Position numbers and translations under genes: made by a program. Below the pieces are notes generated by a model that did no database searches, was not told the DNA's origin, and worked only from the letters and a program-made list of their open reading frames with translations. Shown here piece after piece: positions 40,875 through 57,441 of a DNA stretch of 64,000 nt (position 1 is its first letter; each line of letters begins with the position of its first letter). Source of the stretch: Achromobacter sp. AONIH1 (lineage in GTDB: Bacteria; Pseudomonadota; Gammaproteobacteria; Burkholderiales; Burkholderiaceae_B); the NCBI RefSeq assembly GCF_002902905.1, contig NZ_CP026124.1, positions 930,001-994,000 of the forward strand, in the 5' to 3' direction.

Positions 40875-41252
40875 TTAAGCCTTCTTCGGACGCTTGGCGC
40901 CGTACTTCGAGCGGGCTTGCTTACGGTCCTTGACGCCTTGCAGGTCGAGGGAACCGCGCACGATGTGATAACGCACACCGGGCAAGTCCTTCACACGACC
41001 GCCACGCACCAGAACGACCGAGTGCTCTTGCAGGTTGTGGCCTTCACCGCCGATGTACGAAATGACTTCGTAACCGTTGGTCAGACGCACCTTGGCGACC
41101 TTACGCAGAGCGGAGTTCGGCTTCTTGGGGGTGGTGGTGTACACGCGGGTGCACACGCCGCGGCGTTGCGGGCAGTTTTCGAGCGCGGGGCTCTTGCTCT
41201 TGATGATGCTGACTTCGCGCGGCTTGCGCACGAGTTGGCTGATGGTAGGCAT
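40875..41252 (-). CDS. rpsL: 30S ribosomal protein S12
   Basis: 125 residues. The loops that determine streptomycin response are wild type: Lys43 in [12 protein letters not shown] and Lys88 in GGRVKDLPG. The C-terminus ends [15 protein letters not shown]12 monitors codon-anticodon pairing. First gene of the str operon, with a long leader of about 365 nt. Confidence 0.98.
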
Positions 41253-41919: not shown

Positions 41920-42621
41920 CTATTGGTCGGCGAACAGGTAGCCGCTGCCGTACACGGTACGGATGGGCAGCATCACGCCGGCCAGCTCGGCCTTGCGCCG
42001 CAGGCGGCTGACGATCACGTCGATGCTGCGCGAGCCGCTGGAGCGGGCGCCGCCGCCTTCGACACGCAGCTCATCGCCCAATTCATTGCGGCCGACCGCC
42101 CTCCCCGCCACTTCCAGCAGCGAGCGGACGATCAGGCGTTCGTTGGCCGACAGCGAGATGGCGGTGCCCGACGGCGCGACCAGCGTCCAGCCCTGGTCGC
42201 GCAGTTCCCACTGCCCGCTGGCGGCGCCGTCCGCGCCTGCGGCCGGCTGTCCCACGGGCAGGCGGCGCGCCAGCGCCAGCAGCATGCAGGCCAGTTCGCG
42301 CGGATCCTGCGCGCCGGGCAGGCAGGCGTCGGCGCCGCTTTGCAGGCAACGCAAGCGGTCATCCAGCGAAAGCGCCTTGCCGGTCACGATGATGCCCAGC
42401 GCCGAAGAGCCATGCAGCCGGGCGATCAGGGCGTAGCCAATTTCGCCCAGGGCATCCACATCGAGTACGACGGCGTCGTGGACGCCGCTATTCAACAAGC
42501 CGAACAGTTCGAGAGAAGTCGAACAGCCGCGGGCCGAAATGCCAGCCTGCAGCAGCGCCGAAACGGCAGCAGTGCGAGCCTGCTCGTCCGGCGACATCAT
42601 AAGTATGCGCAGTTGATTCAT
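41920..42621 (-). CDS. OmpR-type response regulator with a degenerate receiver
   Basis: 233 residues from ATG at 42621 (a GTG lies four codons earlier). The receiver keeps Asp12/Glu13 and the phospho-acceptor candidate Asp54 (VVLDVD) and Thr80 (VTGK), but the invariant Lys after strand 5 is lost: CLPGAQDP stands where LPKPFDP is expected. The C-terminal winged helix is complete (LSANERLIVRSLLEVAGRAV, SIDVIVSRLRRKAE, RTVYGSGYLFAD). Divergent from the canonical regulator at 42890. Possibly phosphorylation-independent. Confidence 0.85.
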   Translation of the reverse strand: MNQLRILMMSPDEQARTAAVSALLQAGISARGCSTSLELFGLLNSGVHDAVVLDVDALGEIGYALIARLHGSSALGIIVTGKALSLDDRLRCLQSGADACLPGAQDPRELACMLLALARRLPVGQPAAGADGAASGQWELRDQGWTLVAPSGTAISLSANERLIVRSLLEVAGRAVGRNELGDELRVEGGGARSSGSRSIDVIVSRLRRKAELAGVMLPIRTVYGSGYLFADQ

Positions 42622-42709
42622 TTTCCATCCCACCCCAACCCCAAGTCCCGCATCGCCGCCGGCTTGTCATGCCTGGCGGCGGGCGACGCAGTTGAGACAG
42701 TGTGGCGGC

Positions 42710-42757
42710 TTGTTGCGCAACAACTCCAGTCAAGATTCGTCAAGTTTGCAAAGTTTG
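42710..42757. promoter_or_regulatory. Repeat-rich control region between the two response regulators
   Basis: A perfect palindrome TTGTTGCGCAACAA (42710-42723) is followed by GTCAAG at 42729 and 42739, exactly 10 bp apart, and then TTTGACG in inverted orientation. OmpR-family regulators typically bind direct repeats spaced 10 bp, so this is the likely binding site for one or both adjacent regulators. Function inferred. Confidence 0.5.
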
Positions 42758-42889
42758 ACGGTTGTTGGCATGACTTCGTCAGGGATCCGCCGCCCGAGTT
42801 ATCATTCGTTTACACAAATTTCCCCACTCCGCAACAGGAAGCCGCTACGCGTACGTGCGCAGCCCCCTCCGCGAGACACAACGCCGCCT

Positions 42890-43603
42890 ATGAAAATCGC
42901 GTCGCTGGAAGACGACCTGGACCAAGCACGCCGTATCCAGCAGGTTCTGACGGCTGCTGGCTATACATGCAGCAGCTATCAGCAGAGCCGCGACCTGCTC
43001 TCGGCCATGCGCAACGAGAGCTTCGATCTGGTACTGCTGGACTGGCACCTGCCCGATATCGACGGCGACGACGTGGTGCGCTGGCTGCGCGCCAATATCG
43101 GCCCGCGCATCCCGGTCATTTTCCTGACCAACCGCTCCAGCGAGGACGACCTGGTCGAAGGGCTGCGCGCCGGCGCAGATGACTACATCGTCAAGCCATT
43201 GCGCCCCCTGGAATTGCTGGCCAGGGTGGCCGCCCTGCTGCGCCGCAGCCAGATCGCCGAACCCGCGGACGAATCGTTCGACGTGGCGAACTACCGCGTC
43301 GAGCCCTCCGCCCGCACCATCGCGCTGAACGGCAAGGCCGTCACGCTGGCGCCCAAGGAATTCGAGCTCGCGCTGCTGTTCTTTCGCAATCTGGGCCGGC
43401 TCATGTCGCGCGACGTGCTGGCCGAATGCGTGTGGAACAGGGAAATTCCGGCCACCTCGCGCACGCTGGACACGCACCTGTCCAACATCCGGCAAAAGCT
43501 GCAGCTGCGGCCGGAACACGGCGTGCGCCTGACCTCGTCCTATGCGCTGGGTTACCGCCTGGAGCTGACCAGCGCCCAGGACGACGGCCAGCCCGCGCCG
43601 TGA
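42890..43603 (+). CDS. OmpR-type response regulator (canonical)
   Basis: 237 residues from ATG at 42890. The receiver has the acidic cluster Glu7-Asp8-Asp9, phospho-acceptor Asp51 (VLLDWHLPD), Thr79 and Lys101 (YIVKPL), all intact. The winged helix at about 140-230 has LAPKEFELALLFFRNLGRLM, RTLDTHLSNIRQKL and YALGYRLE. It heads an apparent operon with the LysM/FecR protein and the CHASE2 kinase, which is its probable partner. Confidence 0.92.
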   Translation: MKIASLEDDLDQARRIQQVLTAAGYTCSSYQQSRDLLSAMRNESFDLVLLDWHLPDIDGDDVVRWLRANIGPRIPVIFLTNRSSEDDLVEGLRAGADDYIVKPLRPLELLARVAALLRRSQIAEPADESFDVANYRVEPSARTIALNGKAVTLAPKEFELALLFFRNLGRLMSRDVLAECVWNREIPATSRTLDTHLSNIRQKLQLRPEHGVRLTSSYALGYRLELTSAQDDGQPAP

Positions 43604-43641
43604 ACGCCCCAGCCCATGCCACATCCGGAGAATCGCCCGCC

Positions 43642-44748
43642 ATGCGCCGCCACCGCGCCCTTGCTTCGCTTGTCCTGTTTTCCAGCCTGTTGCTGGGTGC
43701 CGTCGCGCATGGCCAGCCCGCGGGTTCGCTGGGAGAGGACTTCATCTACCGCGTGCGCGCCGGCGATACGCTGATCAACATCGCCAACACGTACACGCGC
43801 AATTCCGCCAACTGGAATCCGCTGCAGTCGCTGAACAAGATCGTCGCGCCCGAACAGCTGCCGATCGGCCTGGAATTGCACATCCCGCTGTCCATGATTC
43901 CGGTCCGGCCTGCAGAAGCGCGCGTCGTGCACGTCAGCGGCCAGGCCTCCGCCGCCGGCAAGACGCTTGCGCCGGGCGCCAGCCTGCCCGAAGGCAGCAC
44001 CGTCGTCACCGCGCCCAATGGCTTCGTGACGCTGGAACTGGCCGACGGCTCCAAGCTCACGCTGCCCGCGGACGGCTCGGTGGAACTGTCTCGCATGCGG
44101 CAATTCGAAGGCACCGGCCTGACCGACTCGGTGGTGCGCGTGCAGCGCGGCAGCGTGGAGTCCTCGGTGGCCCCGGAGGGCCAGGGCGTGGGTCGTTTCG
44201 AAATCCGCACGCCGGTCGCCGTCACGGGCGTGCGTGGCACGCGCTTCCGCGTGCAAAGCGGCAGCGGCGGCGTGCATAGCGAAGTCCTGGAAGGCAGCGT
44301 GCGCCTGCAGCCGCACGCCCCCGGCGCCACGCCGGCCAAGCCCGTGGCCGTGGCCCGCGGCTTCGGCGCGGCGGTCGGCGCAGACGGCACGGTTGCCGGT
44401 TTGCGCCAACTGCTGCCGGCTCCGCAGCTGGCCGCGCCGACGCGCGCCGGCGGTCAATGGACCAGCGCGTTCGAGCCGGTGCCCGGCGCCAAGAGCTATC
44501 TGGTGCGCGTATCGCGCGACGCCGATGGCGCGCAGCCCGTGTCTTCCGCGCTTTTCGCCAGCAACGACATCCGTTTTCGCGCCCCCGGCGCGGGCACCTA
44601 CTATGTCTCGGTGCGCGCGGTCGACGACCTGGGCCTGCACGGACAGGATGCCGTCGCCACCTTCGAAGGCATGAGCCAGTTGTCCACCGCGTTCGGCCTG
44701 GGCGTGGCCACCGGCACGGGCGGCTTCGTGACGCTGACTGATTACTGA
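43642..44748 (+). CDS. LysM and FecR domain exported protein
   Basis: 368 residues from ATG at 43642. Signal peptide to about residue 25 (LVLFSSLLLGAVAHG). A LysM peptidoglycan-binding domain lies at about 33-83 (YRVRAGDTLINIANTYTRNS and IGLELHIPL). A FecR domain lies at about 115-215 (GSTVVTAPNGFVTLELADGS, FEIRTPVAVTGVRGTRFRVQ). A fibronectin-like region lies at about 270-345. Cell-wall-anchored periplasmic protein that probably gives a signal to the CHASE2 kinase encoded 13 bp downstream (inference). Confidence 0.88.
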   Translation: MRRHRALASLVLFSSLLLGAVAHGQPAGSLGEDFIYRVRAGDTLINIANTYTRNSANWNPLQSLNKIVAPEQLPIGLELHIPLSMIPVRPAEARVVHVSGQASAAGKTLAPGASLPEGSTVVTAPNGFVTLELADGSKLTLPADGSVELSRMRQFEGTGLTDSVVRVQRGSVESSVAPEGQGVGRFEIRTPVAVTGVRGTRFRVQSGSGGVHSEVLEGSVRLQPHAPGATPAKPVAVARGFGAAVGADGTVAGLRQLLPAPQLAAPTRAGGQWTSAFEPVPGAKSYLVRVSRDADGAQPVSSALFASNDIRFRAPGAGTYYVSVRAVDDLGLHGQDAVATFEGMSQLSTAFGLGVATGTGGFVTLTDY

Positions 44749-44761
44749 GTTTCCCCGCGCC

Positions 44762-47077
44762 ATGGCCGACGCCGCCCACCCGCAGGACCGCAGCTCGCGC
44801 TCAGGACTGTGGCTGGCGGCGGCGCTGATCGCGCTGGCGGCTCTGCTGGGCGCGCTGAACGGGCTGGGCCGCGTCGACCAGATCCTGTATGACCGCGCGG
44901 TCGTCATGACGCCGCGCCCGGCATCGCCAGACATCCTGATCGTCGCGATCGATGACGCCACCATCGACGCACTGGGCCGCTGGCCCTGGCGCCGCGCCAT
45001 CCATGCCGCCCTGCTCGACCGCCTGCAGGGTGCGCGGGCGGTGGGCCTGGACGTGATCTTCGCGGAACCCGACACGATCAACCCGAACGACGACGCGATT
45101 CTCGCCGACAGCCTGCGCCGCAACGGCCGCGCGGTGCTGCCCGTGGTGCTGGACCGACTCGACCACCCGGGCAGCATGAGCCTGCCCATCCCGGCGCTGG
45201 CCCAGGCCGCGGCGGGGCTGGGCTTCATCAACGCGCGCATCGACGCCGACGGCGTGGTGCGCGAAAGCGTGCTGCGCGTGCACTACGACGGCGACTGGTG
45301 GCGCCATCTGGCCCTGACGCTGCTGCGCATCGGCGGCGAATCCGACGTCGCCGGCCGCCTGCTCAAGCGCGCGCAACCGGACGGCGGCATCCTGATCCCC
45401 TATTCCGGTCCGCCGGCCCATACCCGCACCGTGTCCTATCTGTCCGTGCTGCGCGGCGACCTGCCGGCGGACGCGCTACGCGGCAAGTATGTGCTGGTCG
45501 GCGCCTGGGCCACCGGCCTGAGCGACACCTATCCGACGCCGGTGTCCCATGACACGAGCGGCATGTCGGGCGTTGAAATCGTGGCCAATGTGCTGCAGGC
45601 GGCGCGCGACGATATCGCCTACCAGGCGCCGCCGCCCTGGTTGAACGCGCTGTTCTCCGCGCTGCCGGCGCTGCTGGCCTGCCTGGCCTTGTGGCGGCTT
45701 TCGCCCAAGCGCGCCCTGCTGGTGTGCCTCGCGCTGCTGGCCGCCGTGCTGGCGGCATCGCTGCTGCTGCTGTCGCAGGCCTATCTGTGGTTCGCCCCCA
45801 GCGCGGCGCTGCTGGGCGTCGCGCTCAGCTATCCGATGTGGAGCTGGCGCAGCCAGGAGGCCGCGCTGCGCTACATGGACTACGAGCTGCGCCGTCTGCA
45901 GCGCGAGTACCCGCCGGTGCTGAACGAAGCCCGCGCGCAGTCTTTCGGCCACAGCGCCTCGCTCGAGCATCGCGTCGGCGAACTGAGCCGCGCCCTGGCC
46001 CGCGTGCGCAACCTGCGGCGCTTCCTGGCGGACGGCCTGGACGGCATGCCGGACGCAACCCTGGTGTTCGACGAACAGGGCCGCATGCAATTCCGCAACC
46101 AGGCCGCGGTGATGTATTTCCAGCGGCTGGGCATGCGCCCGCCGCGCGTCGGCCATCCCGCCACGCATCTGCTCGAACGCACGATTTCTGATGACGACGC
46201 GCGCCAGCGCCTGGCCGACGCGCTGAGCGGACAGGAACGCGAATCCTCGCCCTGGAGCGCCGACCTGGAAGTGCGCGATCGCGCGGGACGCGACCTGATC
46301 CTCAAGTGCGCGCCCATCCACACGGCGGAAGGCCAATTTGCCGGCACGGTGGCCACGCTCACCGACATCTCCAGCATCCGCCAGGCCGAGCGCCAGCGCG
46401 AGGAAACGCTGCGTTTCGTGTCGCACGACATGCGCGCGCCGCAAAGCTCGATCCTGGCGTTGATCGACATGCATCACGAAGCGGACGCGCGCGACAGCCA
46501 GGACGATACCCTGCGGCGTATCGCCATGCTGGCGCGCCGCACGCTGAACCTGGTGGACGATTTCGTGCACCTGACCCGTGCGGAATCGATGGCCATCCGT
46601 CCGGTCGAGCTGGACCTGGGCAGCCTGCTGCAGGATGGCGTGGACGAGTTCTGGGCTGCCGCCCAGAAAAAGAACATCGCGCTGGCGACGCAGCCTGACC
46701 TGCCCGTGGCCTATGCGCTGGGCGACCAGACGCTGCTGATGCGGGCGCTGTGCAACCTGATCGACAACGCGATCAAGTACAGCCCGGCCGATACCCGCAT
46801 CGATTGCGGCATAGAGGAAGACGACGGCTATTGGCGCATCAGCGTGCGCGACCAGGGCCGGGGCATCGCCGCGCAGGACCTGGACAGCCTGTTCGAACCG
46901 TTTTCTCGCGTGGCCGCCGATACGCGCAAGGACGTGGGCGGCGCCGGCCTGGGCCTGGCCTTCGTGCGCACGGTGGCGCAACGCCACGGCGGCACCGCGG
47001 AGGTCAGCAGTGAACCGGGCCGGGGCTCGGTCTTCAGCCTGCGGCTGCCGATGGCGCCGGAGCACGACGGCCAATAG
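44762..47077 (+). CDS. CHASE2-domain sensor histidine kinase
   Basis: 771 residues. TM1 at about 17-36, a periplasmic CHASE2 sensor at about 40-295 (LIVAIDDATIDALGRWPWRR, FAEPDTINPNDDA, GKYVLVGAWATGLSD), three more TM helices at about 297-375, a PAS-like region at about 425-540, the HisKA helix with His555 (FVSHDMRAPQ), and the ATPase with N-box NLIDNAIKYSP, DQGRGI and GAGLGLAF. All catalytic boxes are intact. Likely phosphorylates the regulator at 42890. Convergent with the pseudokinase gene 15 bp away. Confidence 0.93.
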   Translation: MADAAHPQDRSSRSGLWLAAALIALAALLGALNGLGRVDQILYDRAVVMTPRPASPDILIVAIDDATIDALGRWPWRRAIHAALLDRLQGARAVGLDVIFAEPDTINPNDDAILADSLRRNGRAVLPVVLDRLDHPGSMSLPIPALAQAAAGLGFINARIDADGVVRESVLRVHYDGDWWRHLALTLLRIGGESDVAGRLLKRAQPDGGILIPYSGPPAHTRTVSYLSVLRGDLPADALRGKYVLVGAWATGLSDTYPTPVSHDTSGMSGVEIVANVLQAARDDIAYQAPPPWLNALFSALPALLACLALWRLSPKRALLVCLALLAAVLAASLLLLSQAYLWFAPSAALLGVALSYPMWSWRSQEAALRYMDYELRRLQREYPPVLNEARAQSFGHSASLEHRVGELSRALARVRNLRRFLADGLDGMPDATLVFDEQGRMQFRNQAAVMYFQRLGMRPPRVGHPATHLLERTISDDDARQRLADALSGQERESSPWSADLEVRDRAGRDLILKCAPIHTAEGQFAGTVATLTDISSIRQAERQREETLRFVSHDMRAPQSSILALIDMHHEADARDSQDDTLRRIAMLARRTLNLVDDFVHLTRAESMAIRPVELDLGSLLQDGVDEFWAAAQKKNIALATQPDLPVAYALGDQTLLMRALCNLIDNAIKYSPADTRIDCGIEEDDGYWRISVRDQGRGIAAQDLDSLFEPFSRVAADTRKDVGGAGLGLAFVRTVAQRHGGTAEVSSEPGRGSVFSLRLPMAPEHDGQ

Positions 47078-47092
47078 CCACGCGCCCCCGCG

Positions 47093-48391
47093 CTATTCGA
47101 AGACGTGTGAAATCACCGCGGGCTTGCCCGCCTTGATTTCCAGCGTGCCGCGGTATGGCGGCAGATCCGCATTGCGCAGCACCACCTGATATTTGCCGGG
47201 AATCAGGCGCAGCTCCTTCACCGGCGGACTGATGCCACGCGCGACGCCGTTGACCCAGACCTCGCCCCAGGGCCTGATGTCCAGCCGCACCGTCACGGGC
47301 GTCGCGATGGGCCGGGGCTTGGGTTCCTCCTGCGGCTGCGCCGGCACCGCCGGCTCGGCCTGGAAGGCGCTGTTGTCCAGGGAACGGGCCGCGCCGATCA
47401 GGGCCTCCGTTGAAGGCGGCGCGGCATCCGCGACGGCCGGCGGCTTGAACTCCGCGACGAGCACGGGCATCGTCTGCTGCGCAGGCTGCAGCCCGGGCGG
47501 CTCGGCGCGCGCCACTTGCGGCTCGGCTTGCGGCTCGGCTTGCGGCGCGGACGGCTGCGCCGGCGCCTCCGGTCGGACCATGGGCGGGTTCGGCGGCATC
47601 AGCTCGGAGCTGGTGATCAGCACATTGGGCGCGCGGCCGGACTGGAACCAGCCAACGGCGCCACCCACGACGACCAGCGCCAGCAACAGGCCGATCCATA
47701 CCGGCTTGCCGCGCTTCGCAGCCGGCTGGCGCAGATGCGCGCCGCCAACCGGCGGCGAGGCCTGCTGCGAGGCGCCGGCCGCGCCCGGGGACGCGGGCAC
47801 GGCATCTGCGTAGACCACCATGCCCAGCCTGCCCGCCAGATCCGCCAGCGACTGCGGCCGCTCGGCAGGCTGCATGGACAGGCCCTCGTCGATGACGCGC
47901 AGGAACTCCTGGCTGTACTTGGACAGGCCCAGCTGGGCCAAGGGTTCGTAGGGGTCGTCGACGCGCCGTTCCGGCGCGGGCGGCGGACGCAGGCCGGTGA
48001 CCAGCGAGTGCATCACCGCGCACAGCCCATACACGTCGGTCCAGGGCCCGCGCGGCCACTGAGCCGTGTCGGCATACAGTTCGATCGGCGCGAATCCGGG
48101 CGCGGGCGGCAGGGAGTTGCGGCGCGAGCGGGCCACCACCAGCTCAGGCAAGAGGTGGGCGCGGGCACCCTCGTCCATGCCGACGGTGTCCAGCGAGATG
48201 TCGCCACAGATCTCGCCCTGCGCATGCAAGGACATCAGCGACGGCAACAGATCGGACAGCAGGCGCTTGATGCGCGCCTCCGGCACGCCTCCCGCCGCGG
48301 TCGCGGCGATGGCGCTCAGGGGACGCAACGCCAATGGCGCGGCGCCGGAAAAAGGGCCACGCGGCGTCAACAGGCCGGCGGATGATGACAT
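47093..48391 (-). CDS. Membrane-anchored pseudokinase with C-terminal PEGA domain
   Basis: 432 residues from ATG at 48391. Residues about 1-205 follow the C-lobe of a bacterial Ser/Thr kinase but lack the glycine loop, the ATP-binding Lys and a DFG motif. The catalytic loop is CGDISLDTV in place of HRDIKPENI, and LLPELVVAR stands at the DFG position. GPWTDVYGLCAVMHSLVTGL and RPQSLADLAGRL match later kinase helices. One TM helix lies at about 228-248, then a Pro/Ala-rich linker and a PEGA domain (VRLDIRPWGEVWVNGVARGI). Probably a scaffold or sensor. Divergent from the lipoprotein gene. Confidence 0.8.
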   Translation of the reverse strand: MSSSAGLLTPRGPFSGAAPLALRPLSAIAATAAGGVPEARIKRLLSDLLPSLMSLHAQGEICGDISLDTVGMDEGARAHLLPELVVARSRRNSLPPAPGFAPIELYADTAQWPRGPWTDVYGLCAVMHSLVTGLRPPPAPERRVDDPYEPLAQLGLSKYSQEFLRVIDEGLSMQPAERPQSLADLAGRLGMVVYADAVPASPGAAGASQQASPPVGGAHLRQPAAKRGKPVWIGLLLALVVVGGAVGWFQSGRAPNVLITSSELMPPNPPMVRPEAPAQPSAPQAEPQAEPQVARAEPPGLQPAQQTMPVLVAEFKPPAVADAAPPSTEALIGAARSLDNSAFQAEPAVPAQPQEEPKPRPIATPVTVRLDIRPWGEVWVNGVARGISPPVKELRLIPGKYQVVLRNADLPPYRGTLEIKAGKPAVISHVFE

Positions 48392-48544
48392 GTTCAAGGC
48401 GGTGCTCGGGACGTGCGTACCCGGGAATGACGGTTATTAGCCCGAATATTATCGAATCTGCAACACAAGGACATTGCCGAAAATGTCCGACCGCATCAGG
48501 CTGTGGCACGATAGCGCCATCGCCAATCCTCACCAATTCTGCGC

Positions 48545-48946
48545 ATGCCCATGAAAATCCGCTCCTTCGCCGCGCTGGCCGGCGCCGTCACCATGCTTGC
48601 CGGTTGCGCCGGCATGCAACGCGCGCTGCCCGAAACGCCCGCCACGCCCCAGGCGCTGGAACAATTGCAACAAGTACGCGACCAGTACGCCGCCGGCCAC
48701 TACGGCGAAGTGGTGCGCCAGGTGGCGAAGTCGGACGAGCTGGCCGGCTCCACCCGGGCGGTGCGCGTCGAGGCCTACAAGCTCCAGGCCTTCAGCTATT
48801 GCGTCACGCGCTACACCCAGCTGTGCGTGGACAGCTTCGCCCGCATCCTGGCCCTGGACCCCTCGTTCGAGCTGGCACCCAATGAAGCAGGCCACCCGGC
48901 CTGGGGACCGGCCTTCCAGCGCGCCCGGGAGCAGGCCGGACGCTAA
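48545..48946 (+). CDS. Small lipoprotein resembling TssQ-family T6SS-associated proteins
   Basis: 133 residues. The lipobox LAGC with Cys21 predicts an outer-membrane lipoprotein. The rest is a helical, TPR-like domain (VRDQYAAGHYGEVVRQVAKS, EAYKLQAFSYCVTRYTQLCV, ILALDPSFELAPNEAGHPAW) that resembles lipoproteins annotated as TssQ. No other T6SS gene is in the window. ATG 48545 and ATG 48551 are both possible starts. Divergent from the pseudokinase. Confidence 0.65.
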   Translation: MPMKIRSFAALAGAVTMLAGCAGMQRALPETPATPQALEQLQQVRDQYAAGHYGEVVRQVAKSDELAGSTRAVRVEAYKLQAFSYCVTRYTQLCVDSFARILALDPSFELAPNEAGHPAWGPAFQRAREQAGR

Positions 48947-48996
48947 GGCCCGCGCCCCGCGAATCCCGTCCGCGCAAAAGCCCGCGCGGAAAAACA

Positions 48997-49028
48997 GAAA
49001 GGCCGCCGATTCGCATCGGCGGCCTTTC
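48997..49028. terminator. Bidirectional terminator between the lipoprotein gene and rpoC
   Basis: Perfect 14-bp stem GAAAGGCCGCCGAT / ATCGGCGGCCTTTC with a TCGC loop. TTGTTT follows on plus and TGTTTTT on minus. It lies 51 bp past the lipoprotein stop and 57 bp past the rpoC stop, closing both. Confidence 0.9.
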
Positions 49029-49084
49029 TTGTTTCCGGCCTCCCCGCGCCGGACTGCGCGCGGGGAGTTGTCCGAAGGCTCCGC

Positions 49085-57441
<8,357 letters not shown>

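Follow-up and report, generated by a model that had tools for sequence, protein, structure and literature searches.

The chromosome of Achromobacter sp. AONIH1 carries six genes between rpsL and rpoC, encoding two OmpR-type regulators, a LysM-FecR protein, a CHASE2 sensor kinase, a PEGA protein and a TssQ-family lipoprotein. Do these genes form one envelope-signalling system, and is that system new? The window, which is the whole stretch of 64,000 nucleotides analysed, covers positions 930001-994000 of the 6.65-Mb single-contig genome (G000, contig C1). An initial annotation had read the six genes as a compact module and proposed it as an undescribed system, stating that no described pathway combines these parts. 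We consider it probable that the locus is instead an operon of the RowR/BiofilmReg kind, standing beside a separate pseudokinase/TssQ pair derived from a type VI secretion system (T6SS).

The domain reading, the gene order and the envelope logic of the domains are supported. The canonical response regulator (RR), the LysM-FecR protein and the kinase, referred to here as the trio, are encoded in that order by adjacent genes on the same strand, with gaps of 38 bases (RR/LysM-FecR) and 13 bases (LysM-FecR/kinase). The RR contains receiver (86 bits) and Trans_reg_C (61.1 bits) domains and retains Asp51 and Lys102. The LysM-FecR protein (LysM 27.3 bits, FecR 61 bits) has a single N-terminal hydrophobic segment, predicted to be a signal peptide, and none elsewhere. 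The kinase matches CHASE2 (187.1 bits), PAS_4 (27.4 bits) and HATPase_c (104 bits), with HisKA (24.5 bits) under its cut-off of 26.9. One hydrophobic helix lies ahead of CHASE2 and a hydrophobic stretch behind it, followed by the PAS, HisKA and ATPase boxes. The phosphotransfer residues are intact, with His555, an N box at 665 and the G boxes (N box, G box, HRD, DFG and lipobox are used in their usual sense). Among 34 matches to the kinase in its own genome, only this gene covers the CHASE2 part.

A system of this composition has been described. In PMC5192318, a plasposon insertion in the RR turned off biofilm in Burkholderia contaminans, and the operon was named BiofilmReg. A three-gene form is listed there for Achromobacter xylosoxidans, A. 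ruhlandii, A. insuavis, Bordetella bronchiseptica and B. pertussis. In Burkholderia cenocepacia, mutations in the RR Bcen2424_1436 suppress the wrinkly phenotype and lower biofilm (PMC4324302). Signalling to this RR is predicted from the CHASE2 kinase Bcen2424_1438 and additionally from the Wsp pathway (PMC4324302), and a further source gives it the name RowR (PMC8552884). The combination of RR, LysM-FecR protein and CHASE2 kinase is thus that of BiofilmReg/RowR (PMC5192318, PMC4324302, PMC8552884), contrary to the claim that no pathway joins these parts. We also reject the proposal of an undescribed system, as PMC5192318 lists Achromobacter and Bordetella as carriers of the trio. Judged by its sequence, the trio is the already published RowR/BiofilmReg-type surface-sensing biofilm system in a known host group.

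The distribution of the trio was followed in 101 genomes of the family and in 43 genomes of the genus Achromobacter. A kinase match at E 1e-60 is present in 55 of the 101 family genomes, and both RR and LysM-FecR adjoin it in 53. Of the remaining two, G065 has no LysM-FecR, while in G011 the RR falls under the threshold but two RR fragments are visible. At the G065 locus (L050:6990-10019), only 30 bases separate the kinase and RR matches, and LysM-FecR and TssQ are missing at the site. The kinase match is split in two pieces in G087 (L051:7991-10274) and G130 (G130:C1:1401502-1403815); PMC5192318 reports that the kinase of B. pertussis 18323 is damaged. Genus labels are g1 for Achromobacter and g15 for Bordetella, with g35 taken as Bordetella. 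Outside these three, rpsL, rpoC or both adjoin the trio in 8 of the 9 trio loci fetched, so the site of the trio is old.

The named loci, 80 kept of the 228 found, comprise 35 from Achromobacter and Bordetella and 45 that are more distant. Among the latter, the trio is on the same strand in 34, the RR is divergent in 4 or downstream in 2, and 5 have no LysM-FecR match. Matches to RR, LysM-FecR and kinase lie together in Variovorax, Sphingomonas, Pseudomonas and Halomonas (L173, L176, L213, L210-L212, L214). As a predicted operon, the trio in Variovorax, Sphingomonas and Halomonas is beyond the published range; PMC5192318 reports no BiofilmReg operon in Comamonadaceae.

The PEGA gene encodes a different kind of protein. 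A profile of 17 aligned proteins matches Serratia PpkA (PDB 5hnv) at E 1.4e-39, with profile positions 36-191 corresponding to chain residues 137-297. PpkA is also the top fold match of the structure model, which is of low quality apart from the lobe and the PEGA end and in which C-terminal strands are seen. The match begins at residue 137 of the 302 in the chain, and the protein has no N-terminal lobe (N-lobe). CGD stands in place of HRD and DFG is absent. The lobe is followed by a hydrophobic helix (231-249), a Pro/Ala-rich linker and the PEGA end. Public records, among the 120 of 301 matches listed, name the Achromobacter protein a serine/threonine protein kinase. An active kinase was considered and rejected because the N-lobe is absent and HRD/DFG are not intact; by sequence alone, the PEGA protein is a pseudokinase, half a PpkA. 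The T6SS-linked relatives that were inspected, by eye, are also without the N-lobe, and the match in G033 is a full kinase and a distant relative. The initial description as a PEGA-domain pseudokinase therefore stands for the pseudokinase, while PEGA (PF08308) is matched by 6 of the 17 aligned relatives (best E 0.00053) and the protein of the window has no Pfam match of its own, PF08308 included.

The neighbouring lipoprotein scores 128.7 bits against the NCBIfam profile TssQ_fam (NF038027; cut-off 65) and shares a conserved core with the family. Compared with solved structures, it gave two BamD matches only, at E 0.05 and in the signal-peptide region. Among the matches listed from the open-licence PubMed Central (PMC) literature, the PEGA/TssQ pair beside the trio operon was not found described, and a search there for Achromobacter PpkA gave an Acinetobacter match only.

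Both proteins are related to T6SS-linked proteins. We take the Pfam families VipB, IcmF, DotU and VasE to be TssC, TssM, TssL and TssK, respectively, and the ClpB-like ATPase of the T6SS to be ClpV. With PEGA matches counted at 1e-8 and TssC identified by PF05943, the family sample contains 38 genomes with PEGA matches (one being the full kinase of G033), 34 with TssQ and 48 with TssC. TssC is present in 31 of the 34 TssQ genomes and missing from G000, G027 and G087. In T6SS loci, some 8 kb separate the PEGA and TssQ genes, which in most cases have opposite orientations (the same strand in L088 and L089).

Several genomes connect such loci to the rpsL-rpoC site. In G009 (genus g9), this interval (L065, L066, L081) holds TssM, TssL, TssK, an FHA protein, a ClpV-like ATPase, TssG and TssC; PEGA adjoins rpsL, and TssM, TssL and TssK lie between PEGA and TssQ. 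PEGA also adjoins rpsL in G048 (also g9; L082, L083), with TssQ further in and the fetched DNA ending before rpoC. In G005 and G046, PEGA and TssQ flank other genes at the site, which in G005 include VgrG-like and FHA genes. The two are adjacent at the site without the trio in G073 and G094. They are also adjacent, and divergent as in the window, in the TssC-free G027 (L075:2905-5123), where the 9 kb fetched contain no rpsL or rpoC. In a tree of the lobe, the 16 site copies form one side of a branch (83/74), as they do when joined by the two copies from G005 and G046 (86/76). T6SS linkage holds for every remaining row except the same-interval rows of g5 and g9 and one of G027. We infer that the PEGA/TssQ pair goes back to a T6SS locus whose machine genes were lost; this ancestral locus may have stood in the rpsL-rpoC interval, as g9 suggests.

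The pair is kept in genomes that lack TssC, which is the new element of this locus. G000 has no TssC (PF05943) candidate, its other T6SS core genes not having been searched. Of the 43 Achromobacter genomes, 42 have the kinase (split in two in G130), 41 have TssQ and 39 have TssC. The distance between TssQ and the kinase is 1.5-1.7 kb in 39 of these 41 genomes, and the other two have kinase and TssQ on separate contigs. TssQ is missed in G124, a genome that is 78% complete, and in G135, where the contig breaks off within PEGA. TssQ occurs without TssC in G000 and G107, each a single contig, and in G129 (57% complete); G107 and G129 have all six genes in the order of the window.

It is conceivable, though fairly unlikely, that the PEGA protein and TssQ still belong to the secretion machinery and act in trans on T6SS clusters at other chromosomal sites. 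Such a role would fit the presence of TssC in most Achromobacter genomes and the 51 of 66 TssC loci in this sample that have no TssQ within 25 kb, as well as four g15 genomes in which the T6SS contig carries a PEGA gene and the sole TssQ is at the rpoC site. It accounts poorly for G000 and G107, which have the pair and no TssC, likewise for G027 and G087, and for 15 further Achromobacter TssQ genes that have their own TssC within 25 kb. In 11 Achromobacter genomes (G101, G104, G105, G137 and seven others), a TssC locus is found about 56-66 kb from the TssQ of the rpoC site.

Selection was estimated for 27 Achromobacter loci (24 for TssQ) as omega (NG86, pairs with dS 0.05-1, 177 to 349 pairs). 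The median is 0.136 for the degenerate OmpR-type regulator (RRdeg), 0.098 for RR, 0.203 for LysM-FecR, 0.170 for the kinase, 0.220 for PEGA and 0.171 for TssQ, with about 0 for the rpsL control. All six genes evolve under purifying selection in Achromobacter, where most of the genomes carry some T6SS. The values for PEGA and TssQ, together with the near-universal presence of TssQ in the genus, where both misses are an incomplete genome or a contig end, make it very improbable that the pair is an inert relic which persists solely because of its place in the ribosomal/RNA polymerase region. The absence of TssQ from the site in G035 and G065 and a stop in the PEGA frame of G087 are what such a relic would show.

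Several observations weigh against an operon of known type beside a T6SS-derived pair. Relatedness to the Burkholderia operon is judged from moderate identity (RR 43-44%, LysM-FecR 37-38%, kinase 39%; L177, L182, L187), from gene order and from the published listing. According to PMC4324302, Wsp is also proposed to feed the RR in B. cenocepacia, and the wrinkly mutants produced less, not more, exopolysaccharide than smooth RR mutants. The PEGA-protein model is poor overall (predicted local distance difference test, pLDDT, 63), and no fold match of the TssQ model reaches significance (best E 0.13). Resolution is lower in the TssQ tree, where the site copies need two changes, and only midpoint rooting was available for both trees. 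Neither the lobe tree nor the TssQ tree unites the g9 copies with those of the site, which weakens the g9 T6SS as direct ancestor of the pair; the T6SS in the g9 interval may be an independent insertion. Since TssC is present in 39 of the 43 Achromobacter genomes, the omega values do not single out selection in T6SS-free genomes.

The layout of the locus (Table 1) bears on whether the six genes act as one. All six open reading frames (ORFs) are open and lie where the initial annotation had placed them, with both flanks confirmed; the starts of the first, third and sixth genes were moved to 42621, 43642 and 48551. The genes do sit together as a compact group, but the strand pattern (-), (+++), (-), (+) predicts four or more transcription units. 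The kinase gene converges with the PEGA gene across 15 bases, and the TssQ gene diverges from the PEGA gene. The TTATCAT block of the promoter candidate is present in the five aligned Achromobacter rows. The inverted repeat between PEGA and TssQ is exact in 3 of 10 aligned regions, all three from Achromobacter (3 of 5 Achromobacter regions). The terminator-like scan gave 8 sites in the stretch versus 4.7 +/- 2.2 in shuffles, and the hairpin 3' of rpoC would separate transcription of TssQ from that of rpoC.

Table 1 Features of the rpsL-rpoC interval, in positions of the window.
Feature	Position	Strand	Basis
rpsL (flank)	40875-41252	-	translation; same flank in relatives
RRdeg, degenerate OmpR-type regulator	41920-42621	-	start ATG at 42621; Trans_reg_C above, receiver below cut-off
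Direct repeat GTCAA-N5-GTCAA, candidate operator	42729-42743	+	divergent promoter region RRdeg/RR
Sigma-70-like promoter candidate for operon	42776-42805	+	2 sites in 8-kb stretch vs 0.8 +/- 0.9 shuffled
RR, canonical OmpR-type response regulator, RowR/BiofilmReg RR relative	42890-43603	+	domains, Asp51, Lys102
Exported LysM-FecR protein	43642-44748	+	LysM, FecR domains; predicted signal peptide
CHASE2-PAS-HisKA-HATPase_c sensor kinase	44762-47077	+	domains; His555, N box, G boxes intact
PEGA protein: PpkA-type C-terminal lobe (pseudokinase), hydrophobic helix, Pro/Ala-rich linker, PEGA end	47093-48391	-	
Inverted repeat GGACATT-N6-AATGTCC between PEGA and TssQ genes	48469-48488		also terminator-like score on - strand
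TssQ-family lipoprotein	48551-48946	+	NCBIfam profile, lipobox LAGC, all-helical model
15-pair hairpin + T tail, 3' of rpoC, between TssQ and rpoC	48996-49029		terminator-like scan
rpoC (flank)	49085-53329	-	translation; same flank in relatives

RRdeg retains a Trans_reg_C domain (38.1 bits) and a weak receiver (25.9 bits, cut-off 30.2). In 13 aligned rows, its DNA-binding end is well conserved, the receiver Lys is absent throughout and the acidic pair is reduced. The phospho-Asp is Asn or Glu in 2 rows and is kept in the other eleven, the window gene included. A relative in the same genome, at C1:5498078, keeps the receiver residues. A further degenerate OmpR-type line is represented by G000:C1:123547-124242 (L216, L225), near an ORF read by eye as metG, where no T6SS gene was recognised by eye. 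Degenerate OmpR-type genes also stand beside PEGA in four g15 T6SS loci (L069, L091, L096, L097), and in a tree that one of these four rows was long enough to enter, this regulator groups with G000:C1:123547-124242 and not with RRdeg. A T6SS origin of RRdeg itself was considered as a candidate reading.

RRdeg and RR are separated by 268 bases. The GTCAA direct repeat is exact in 10 of 12 Achromobacter- and Bordetella-type RRdeg/RR intergenic regions; in a second check of 5 genomes, 3 have the exact repeat here, and G131 and G134 do not. Genome-wide in G000, GTCAANNNNNGTCAA occurs 5 times, against 4 for the reversed-pattern control, and this lack of excess, with the inexact copies, leaves the repeat as a candidate operator only. 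Its use as a mapped regulon was rejected on the same counts.

Co-occurrence of all six genes in relatives holds in part. RR and LysM-FecR accompany the kinase almost throughout the family, but PEGA does so in 12, TssQ in 10 and RRdeg in 13 of the 55 kinase genomes. PEGA and TssQ are beside the kinase only in g1, g15 and g35; RRdeg adjoins the trio there and in G030 (g30). Within Achromobacter and Bordetella, the expectation is borne out: all 35 named loci share one order of five genes, and 30 of them also have TssQ. These 30 are the loci that extend to rpoC; in the other five, the contig ends first. The conserved five-gene order is not chance.

This order, the purifying selection on every gene and the occurrence of the full set in the TssC-free G000 and G107 raise the alternative that all six genes constitute one envelope-signalling pathway in Achromobacter and Bordetella, with the pair and RRdeg recruited as sensor or output parts. 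We regard it as unlikely. The trio occurs without PEGA alongside in 43 of the 55 kinase genomes, and in G073 and G094 the pair occupies the site with no trio beside it. The transcription units are separate, and none of the 10 PEGA/TssQ intergenic regions contains the candidate operator of the operon. G065 and G035 lack TssQ here, G065 also lacking LysM-FecR, and synteny beside rpoC can persist without functional linkage. Among putative functional links between trio and pair, a rather improbable one is that in Achromobacter and Bordetella a wrecked T6SS locus has turned into an envelope-spanning accessory, in which PEGA and TssQ sense envelope strain and feed the RowR-type switch, with RRdeg as a phosphate-independent second output.

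With a RowR/BiofilmReg-kind operon beside a separate pair as the favoured explanation, the following sequence of events can be proposed. The periplasmic LysM-FecR protein would probably sit on peptidoglycan and report to the CHASE2 sensor. The kinase would autophosphorylate on His555 and hand the phosphate to Asp51 of the adjacent RR, which by this phosphorylation route may switch biofilm genes through promoter control. Biofilm regulation has been shown for the Burkholderia relatives only, and a biofilm output in Achromobacter is inferred by analogy. RRdeg probably acts on the shared promoter region independently of phosphorylation. The PEGA protein would be an inner-membrane pseudokinase, with its PpkA-type C-terminal lobe (C-lobe), a transmembrane helix and a PEGA end in the periplasm. 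It and TssQ would probably meet across the periplasm as a scaffold, by analogy to PpkA and TssW in Acidovorax.

The analysis corrects two easy misreadings, namely that the trio is undescribed and that the protein annotated as a serine/threonine protein kinase is a whole one, when half the kinase is missing. T6SS accessory proteins in TssC-free genomes offer a route to asking what PpkA-type lobes and TssQ do alone. The Achromobacter RowR-type system is directly testable from the Burkholderia precedent.

Among known systems, PpkA, the T6SS Ser/Thr kinase (5hnv), has a homologous C-lobe and, like the predicted PEGA protein, combines a cytoplasmic lobe, one transmembrane helix and a periplasmic end. 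Unlike PpkA, the PEGA protein is without N-lobe and intact HRD/DFG, carries a PEGA end and is encoded in a genome without TssC. In the PpkA-TssW-Fha axis of Acidovorax (PMC12607579), TssW offers an analogy, and only that, for TssQ as a possible outer-membrane partner. The TssQ family is T6SS-associated, whereas here its member adjoins a RowR-type operon rather than a T6SS cluster and is present without TssC in G000. In the BiofilmReg operon of B. contaminans, the genes for RR, LysM-FecR protein and CHASE2-PAS kinase share one strand and follow each other as they do here (PMC5192318). In Burkholderia, this operon has a fourth gene, DUF4136, whereas the next gene here is PEGA on the opposite strand; RRdeg, the PEGA pseudokinase and TssQ flank the Achromobacter operon, and the passages of PMC5192318 consulted make no mention of such flanks for BiofilmReg. 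The RowR/Bcen2424_1438 system likewise joins an OmpR-type RR and a CHASE2+PAS kinase in one operon, and RowR is needed for the wrinkly phenotype and full biofilm, a B. cenocepacia feature genetically tied to Wsp (PMC4324302, PMC8552884). What is lineage-specific here is the T6SS-derived neighbour pair, which stands together with the degenerate regulator beside this known operon.

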